A stretch of 64,000 bases of DNA from an uncultured Pseudomonadota bacterium (GTDB lineage: Bacteria; Pseudomonadota; Gammaproteobacteria; Burkholderiales; Methylophilaceae), in the NCBI GenBank assembly GCA_903838125.1, contig CAILXF010000024.1, forward strand, positions 25,086 through 89,085, in the 5' to 3' direction. The position numbers and the translations under genes are program-made. How positions within the stretch are numbered: position 1 is the stretch's first letter; each line of letters starts with the position of its first letter. Below, one piece after another: positions 28,134 through 29,371 of the stretch. The notes under the pieces were generated by a model. That model ran no database searches. It was not told the DNA's origin and worked only from the letters and a program-made list of their open reading frames with translations.

Positions 28134-28192
28134 TTTAACATCAGTAGTCACGAGTATTCTTAAATTTAAGGAAATGTTAAGGAGTATTGGTG

Positions 28193-28393
28193 ATGAAAAG
28201 GACTGAAGAAAAAGCACAGGCTGGCGGAAGTAAGCAAAATCAAGTAAAGGCGAAAGTGCCAGTTGCTTATGAGGTTGAACTTCACAGATTGGTGGAACAG
28301 CAGGCTTATTTTCGAGCTGTGTGTGATGGGTTTAGGCTACCCCCTGAAGAATACTGGTATGCGGCCGAGAAGGATGTGCATAAATACTTTTAA
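28193..28393 (+). CDS. DUF2934-like small protein (copy A)
   Basis: AAGGAG SD; core LVEQQAYFRAVCDGFRLPPEEYWYAAEKDV aligns with copies B and C. Confidence 0.7.
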   Translation: MKRTEEKAQAGGSKQNQVKAKVPVAYEVELHRLVEQQAYFRAVCDGFRLPPEEYWYAAEKDVHKYF

Positions 28394-28423: not shown

Positions 28424-29179
28424 CTACTTGCTTGGGTGTTGGCCGATGCGCTTGCGTAAACCTTCCACGTCTAGAATGCGTATATTTTTTTGATGTACGC
28501 TGAGTAGTTTTTGGTCTTGGAATTTTGTAAATATTCGACTTACGGTTTCAACTTTCATTCCTAGATAACTACCAATTTCTTCACGTTTCATACGAAGAAC
28601 GATGTTGAAAGGGGAGTATCCGCGCGCATAAAATCTTTGTGACAAATTAAGCATAAAGGCTGCTATACGCTCTTCACCCTGCATGCTTCCTAAAAGCATC
28701 ATAATCGTGTGGTCGCGCACAATTTCGCGGCTCATTAGTTTGAAAAAATGATTTTGAACTTGGCTAAATTCACGACTGAAATTTTTGACTCTGTCTAGTG
28801 GAATGATGCAAATTTCCGAGTCTTCAAGTGCAACAGAGGTGCTCATATGCTCCTCAGTTGCAATACCATCAAAACCAAAAATCTCGCCCGCCATATAAAA
28901 GCCTGTAATCTGAACTCTACCATCATCATGCAAGCTTTCAGTCTTAATAAATCCAGTTTTAACGGCATATAATGCTTGAAAGCGATCGCCGCTATGATAC
29001 AGACTGTTACCAGCTTTTAACCGCCTTCTTACATAGACCAATTCATCTAATTTCTTGATGAAATCAGATGCAGCTTCTGCCGGCATACATAATGCATGCA
29101 CATTACAGTTAGAGCAGGCGATTTTAGTTTCATGTATTTCAACCTCGCTTTTGAATACATTGATTTTATTAATTTTAAT
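28424..29179 (-). CDS. FNR-type [4Fe-4S] regulator (paralogue 2); apparent non-canonical ATT start
   Basis: Extending the frame upstream of the track's GTG start gives ...INKINVFKSEVEIHETKIACSNCNVHALCMP, restoring C-x2-C-x5-C; AAGGAG lies 6 nt before ATT (29177-29179); no in-frame ATG/GTG/TTG before the TAA at 29192-29194. Confidence 0.8.
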   Translation of the reverse strand: MKINKINVFKSEVEIHETKIACSNCNVHALCMPAEAASDFIKKLDELVYVRRRLKAGNSLYHSGDRFQALYAVKTGFIKTESLHDDGRVQITGFYMAGEIFGFDGIATEEHMSTSVALEDSEICIIPLDRVKNFSREFSQVQNHFFKLMSREIVRDHTIMMLLGSMQGEERIAAFMLNLSQRFYARGYSPFNIVLRMKREEIGSYLGMKVETVSRIFTKFQDQKLLSVHQKNIRILDVEGLRKRIGQHPSK

Positions 29180-29357
29180 CTCCTTAATCGCTTACTCAAC
29201 TCTCTACTCCACTTTACGAGAGGAGTCGGTTGCATGCAATTACTTATATTGGGAGGTTAAATGGTTAGTAAATGGCTAGTTAAATTAGCCATAGCGATTG
29301 AAGTTTTTTTCAAATCAGATCATTAAAATTCAGTGGATTGGGTAATTTTGACTTAAT

Positions 29358-29371
29358 TTGATACAGGTCAA
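29358..29371. promoter_or_regulatory. FNR-type box between divergent fnr paralogue 2 and ackA
   Basis: TTGATACAGGTCAA, identical to the ompW box. Confidence 0.75.

Follow-up and report, generated by a model that had tools for sequence, protein, structure and literature searches.

A probable AUU start codon in fnr2, a gene for an FNR-type regulator in an uncultured Methylophilaceae bacterium

Analysis of a 64,000-nt stretch of DNA (the window), which comes from the 1.6-Mb genome, assembled in 61 contigs, of a Methylotenera-like bacterium, indicated that translation of the FNR-type regulator gene fnr2 very probably starts at AUU, not AUG. Taken together, the comparative evidence makes it highly likely that fnr2 is intact, that its predicted product is an FNR-type oxygen-sensing regulator, and that it starts at the AUU at 29173-29171, with synthesis predicted to be low and IF3-sensitive. 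An FNR paralogue starting at ATT had been proposed in a preliminary description of this DNA, and the proposal was supported by the start codons of orthologues, the spacing from the Shine-Dalgarno (SD) sequence, and the distance to the cysteine motif. The features of the locus are listed in Table 1.

Table 1. Features of the fnr2 locus and their positions in the window
Feature	Position	Strand	Evidence or remark
fnr2, FNR-type regulator	28424..29173	-	249 aa with AUU as codon 1
GTG within Fe-S motif, first table-11 start	29099..29101	-	without SD (+0.8 kcal/mol); GTA in G031, G045, and G030
Proposed AUU start codon of fnr2	29171..29173	-	ATT 6 nt behind AAGGAG; aligned ATT/ATC/ATG in orthologues
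SD AAGGAG	29180..29185	-	anti-SD duplex -9.2 kcal/mol; columns -11, -9, -7, and -6 invariant in 8/8 orthologues
In-frame TAA, closing the fnr2 frame upstream	29192..29194	-	sequence reading
Putative sigma-70 promoter TTGCAT-N17-TAAAGT	29211..29239	-	read by eye; absent from consensus scan listing
Inverted repeat ATGGCTA-N7-TAGCCAT, possible operator upstream of -35	29272..29292	-	closely similar in G021 and G020; degenerate versions in G031 and G045
FNR-box-like site TTGATACAGGTCAA between fnr2 and ackA	29358..29371	+	1 mismatch

The fnr2 gene, its product, and its surroundings

The fnr2 reading frame is open from 29191 to 28427 on the minus strand, with its stop codon at 28426-28424, and the product contains cNMP_binding and HTH_Crp_2 domains and matched a crystallised FNR-type regulator with a phmmer E of 3.5e-51. 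With numbering from the AUU, seven of the eight orthologues described below have their cysteines at positions 20, 23, 29, and 122, and the eighth (G030) has them at 29, 32, 38, and 131; all four are conserved throughout, in the ligand arrangement of an FNR-type [4Fe-4S] oxygen sensor (C-x2-C-x5-C plus one cysteine in the sensor domain). The cysteines of E. coli FNR carry the same residue numbers (20, 23, 29, and 122). The recognition helix, VETVSR, matches the FNR recognition residues E..SR. Against NF008365, the NCBIfam model of the Fnr subfamily, the product scored 218.4 bits, below the curated cut-off of 228 bits, and FNR2 is therefore treated here as a paralogous FNR-type protein and not filed as Fnr proper.

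Downstream of fnr2 lies a cytochrome c oxidase subunit I gene (ccoN-like) in the same orientation, while the acetate kinase gene (ackA) is divergent from fnr2 and is followed by genes for glucan phosphorylase and phosphoketolase. A small plus-strand ORF at 28190-28390, convergent with fnr2, scored 20.8 against DUF2934, just below the 22-bit cut-off. The same genome also carries a third FNR-type gene (L003, G000:C34:772-1452), 47% identical to fnr2, which has an ATG start, the cysteine motif, and a long branch.

Five orthologues share the promoter-like arrangement TTGC(A/G)(T/C)-N17-TA(A/G)AGT (read by eye), from which the transcript would start approximately 30 nt before the AUU or AUC in those five. 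The window contained 15 sites matching TTGAT-N4-ATCAA with at most one mismatch versus 4.1 expected, and none of 100 shuffles reached 15; several of these FNR-box-like sites precede hemN/fnr1, ccoN, and glgP/xfp. The TTGATACAGGTCAA site is centred at about -191 from the AUU, and it therefore more likely serves ackA. Three other orthologues have an FNR box approximately 70-79 nt before the start codon, perfect in G027 and G016 and with one mismatch in G030, so fnr2 transcription there is probably FNR-activated. The fnr2 5' region was predicted to fold no better than shuffled sequences (z -0.46), with the SD and the AUU unpaired, and we make no claim of an RNA switch in the leader.

The start region and its conservation

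Reading the fnr2 frame upstream bore out the preliminary description on two points: no ATG, GTG, or TTG (nor CTG) occurs between the in-frame TAA and the GTG inside the C-x2-C-x5-C motif, and a start at that GTG would cost two of the three N-terminal cysteines. The ATT that it had placed exactly 6 nt after AAGGAG was correct in spacing, which is that of the proposed start codon, but not in position: 29177-29179 belongs, by a 6-nt slip, to a second ATT that adjoins the SD directly, with zero spacing. The SD duplex in the window was matched by 0.4% of random 16-mers from the window. For the first canonical starts of the window's long ORFs, some of which are not true starts, the best duplex was -9.4 and the median near -0.9 kcal/mol.

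Searching 52 genomes from the genus and 187 from the family yielded eight fnr2 orthologues, including the window's own (G000), all of which fall within the genus; outside the genus, none was found among the 187 family genomes. The sole further match above threshold, in G135, was a relative of the main FNR with an ATG start and was rejected as an fnr2. The nearest orthologue with a named record was that of Methylotenera sp. UBA6020 (L004), whose fnr2 5' region is the same as that of G021 (C63), and the two were counted once. In a tree that included the genus's main FNR as well as FNRs from other families, the fnr2 orthologues formed one group (support 100/100), within which the AUU/AUC genes formed one group (95/92) and the ATG gene, in G016, branched first.

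The aligned start codon was ATT in four orthologues (AAGGAG-ATTAAA-ATT in the window, AAGGGG-ACTGAA-ATT in G021, TAGGGG-ATTGAA-ATT in G020, and GAGGAG-AATAGC-ATT in G027), ATC in three (TAGGAG-ACCGAA-ATC in G031, TAGGAG-ACTGCA-ATC in G045, and GAGGAG-ATTAAA-ATC in G030), and ATG in one (AAAGAG-ATTAAG-ATG in G016). The comparison of orthologous start codons, which had been set out beforehand as a potential refutation of the ATT start, thus gave ATT or ATC at the aligned site in six of the seven others and ATG only in the earliest-branching one. The gap between SD and start was 6 nt in all eight, and the first cysteine lay 19 codons from the start in seven and 28 in G030, where nine codons are inserted. 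Around the start, SD columns -11, -9, and -7 and base -6 were invariant, as were the first two bases of the start codon (A and T).

Five genomes (G000, G021, G031, G045, and G027) have no ATG, GTG, TTG, or CTG from the in-frame stop to the cysteine motif. In G020 and G030, an in-frame GTG or ATG follows after a few codons, so initiation in those two would not have to use the weak start. An in-frame TAG abuts or overlaps the SD in three of the eight orthologues; where the two overlap, in G031 and G045, no ATN codon other than the ATC occurs before codon +6. If the conserved Ile codon were an internal residue, translation would have to come from upstream, a reading that the in-frame stops exclude, and read-through of the upstream stop is unlikely because lineages differ in which stop codon it is and where it lies. 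The proposed codon is the one candidate start for which a strong SD at normal spacing occurs in each of the seven AUU/AUC genomes. Because AUU or AUC occupies the same spot behind a strong SD in seven of eight species, the weak start appears to have been retained and not to stem from a sequencing error. The proposed start of fnr2 combines a weak codon at normal SD distance, no usable canonical start, conservation, and a strong SD.

For the seven AUU/AUC genes, SD/anti-SD duplex energies lay between -6.4 and -9.4 kcal/mol (among the strongest 0.3-3.4% of random 16-mers), whereas that of the sole ATG gene was -2.9 kcal/mol (28% of random 16-mers). A strong SD with a weak start versus a weak SD with ATG is the pattern that compensation would predict, and with one ATG gene only it is suggestive.

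Alternative starts and selection on the reading frame

Initiation at the GTG at 29101, which would leave the FNR with only one of its three N-terminal cysteines, is the choice of an annotation that takes the first table-11 start in frame, and ORF finding likewise shortened fnr2 of G027 to the motif GTG and that of G045 to a TTG inside the motif (L043 and L044). However, this GTG has no SD, the codon is GTA in three orthologues (Table 1), and a truncated protein would leave the conservation of four cysteines in all eight orthologues unexplained. We regard initiation there as very improbable and the GTG as very probably a mis-called start. Given the truncated calls in G027, G045, and the window, the public annotation of fnr2 is probably wrong in several genomes. 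Gene finders limited to ATG, GTG, and TTG remove two cluster cysteines, and FNR2 would then resemble a non-sensing paralogue.

A start at a different non-canonical codon is also very unlikely. The candidates are the zero-spaced ATT at 29179-29177 and an ATA at 29137-29135 (+36, behind GAGGT), the latter with a good SD duplex in the window (-9.0). Nevertheless, codon -6 is not ATN in G021, G031, G045, and G027, G045 has AGT and G020 has GTG at +36, the SD of the +36 codon is weaker in all the others, and coding selection covers the stretch upstream of it.

The preliminary description had named a frameshift as the alternative, pointing to an ATG about 19 nt from the SD in a neighbouring frame that an extra A would join to the fnr2 frame. 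Both elements are present in the window (ATG at 29160-29158, 19 nt from the SD; AAAA run at 29152-29149), one added A in the run would join the two frames, and the neighbouring frame is open from an ATG at 29235. By this account translation would start at ATG 29160, and an indel, whether a sequencing error, a mutation, or a programmed slip at AAAA, would lead into the FNR frame. The comparison with orthologues refuted it. In the nearest orthologue, 76% identical, ATA stands in place of the out-of-frame ATG and there is no AAAA run; the out-of-frame ORFs that pass the start differ in all genomes, with an early stop in most, and none is conserved. Because neither this ATG nor the out-of-frame ORFs are conserved, neither an indel error nor programmed frameshifting fits, and an error of one kind would have had to recur in several separate assemblies. 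The 19-nt distance of the ATG from the SD also speaks against it.

Substitutions in codons 2-19 pointed in the same direction. In the AUU frame, pooled pN was 0.45 versus a pS of 0.80 (21 pairs), whereas the other two frames gave pN 0.52 and pS 0.54, and pN 0.54 and pS 0.53; the pairs are not independent, so these values give a direction and not a test. The pattern suggests purifying selection on codons 2-19 in the AUU frame only, which speaks against the neighbouring frame as coding. We hold the frameshift to be almost certainly wrong.

Initiation at AUU and its relation to known non-canonical starts

For fnr2 starting at AUU, the likeliest mechanism is attenuated initiation discriminated against by IF3. 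The initiator tRNA would read the AUU, and residue 1 would be Met although the codon is that of Ile. AUU or AUC would mispair with the initiator anticodon and IF3 should reject it most of the time, while the strong SD would compensate for the weak start, giving low, IF3-sensitive synthesis of FNR2. IF3 disfavours start codons whose third base pairs weakly (PMC10158994). By analogy with the precedents described below, fnr2 would be expected to show low output and IF3 dependence; initiation at the AUU is itself inferred from sequence.

FNR2 would presumably serve the fermentation genes next to fnr2, which encode acetate kinase, glucan phosphorylase, and phosphoketolase. Because VETVSR has the FNR residues, FNR2 and the main FNR may share TTGAT-N4-ATCAA as their binding site, and keeping the dose of a second FNR that competes for common sites low is a plausible reason for the weak start. 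That the FNR2 dose depends on IF3 and the translation state, such that the oxygen signal and ribosome status would both be needed to switch on this fermentation module, is a speculative extension that we consider rather doubtful.

The AUU may also be the start codon and yet a product of tolerated drift, little protein being needed and AUU/AUC being neither selected nor regulated. This account concerns purpose and overlaps with the reading preferred above; it is a possibility to be taken seriously, albeit the lesser one. There is a single clade with only seven AUU/AUC sequences, and one species gets by with ATG. Because the orthologues form one clade, the ATG-to-ATH change may be a single event, and with synonymous sites saturated the missing ATG alone is not significant proof of selection against ATG. 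Conversely, none of the AUU/AUC genes lacks a strong SD, ATT and ATC are the only codons at the site in this group with its synonymous divergence saturated, and the precedents are regulatory (PMC5472188, PMC13009471).

In the literature collection searched, no paper described AUU as the start codon of an fnr gene. If an FNR-type oxygen sensor does have a conserved AUU/AUC start, the list of non-canonical starts would come to include anaerobic control, and the fnr2 orthologues would supply natural AUC starts. To our knowledge, few bacterial genes retain a start that is not ATG, GTG, or TTG, and the known ones include dose-limited regulators (sigR and ccpN).

In E. coli, infC is autoregulated by IF3, and pcnB is the other AUU gene. 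The comparison with infC drawn in the preliminary description proved apt: in seven of these genomes (L048-L054) infC has an ATA start behind GGAG-N8, with no ATG, GTG, or TTG ahead of the conserved N-terminus, so AUH initiation is used for at least one gene in this lineage. The G016 assembly yielded no infC, and pcnB in these genomes has canonical ATG candidates. Like infC, fnr2 would have an AUH start codon; unlike infC, which regulates itself, fnr2 would only be an IF3 target.

FNR2 shares the four cysteines, the CRP fold, and the E..SR helix with FNR-type sensors (E. coli FNR; structures 5cvr and 5e44), and differs from them in the AUU start and in its NCBIfam Fnr score below the cut-off.

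In Streptomyces, translation of sigR begins at GTC, or in a few species at GTT, downstream of AGGAGGTG; the gene is repressed by IF3, and giving it a canonical start makes expression of its regulon constitutive (PMC5472188). Like fnr2, sigR encodes a redox-response regulator and has a genus-wide non-canonical start, a strong SD, and starts mis-annotated in public genomes (PMC5472188). It differs in its GTC versus AUU/AUC and in encoding a sigma factor balanced against an anti-sigma factor, and its repression by IF3 comes from experiment, whereas the IF3 dependence of fnr2 is predicted. The S. aureus genes ccpN (AUA) and cvfC1 (AUU) gave approximately 10% of the output of their AUG versions in poor medium, and ccpN up to 30% in rich medium (PMC13009471). 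These genes resemble fnr2 in their conserved AUH start and strong SD, and ccpN is, in addition, a transcription regulator of metabolism; they differ in being Gram-positive genes with an extended SD, whose starts were shown by ribosome profiling and reporters (PMC13009471).
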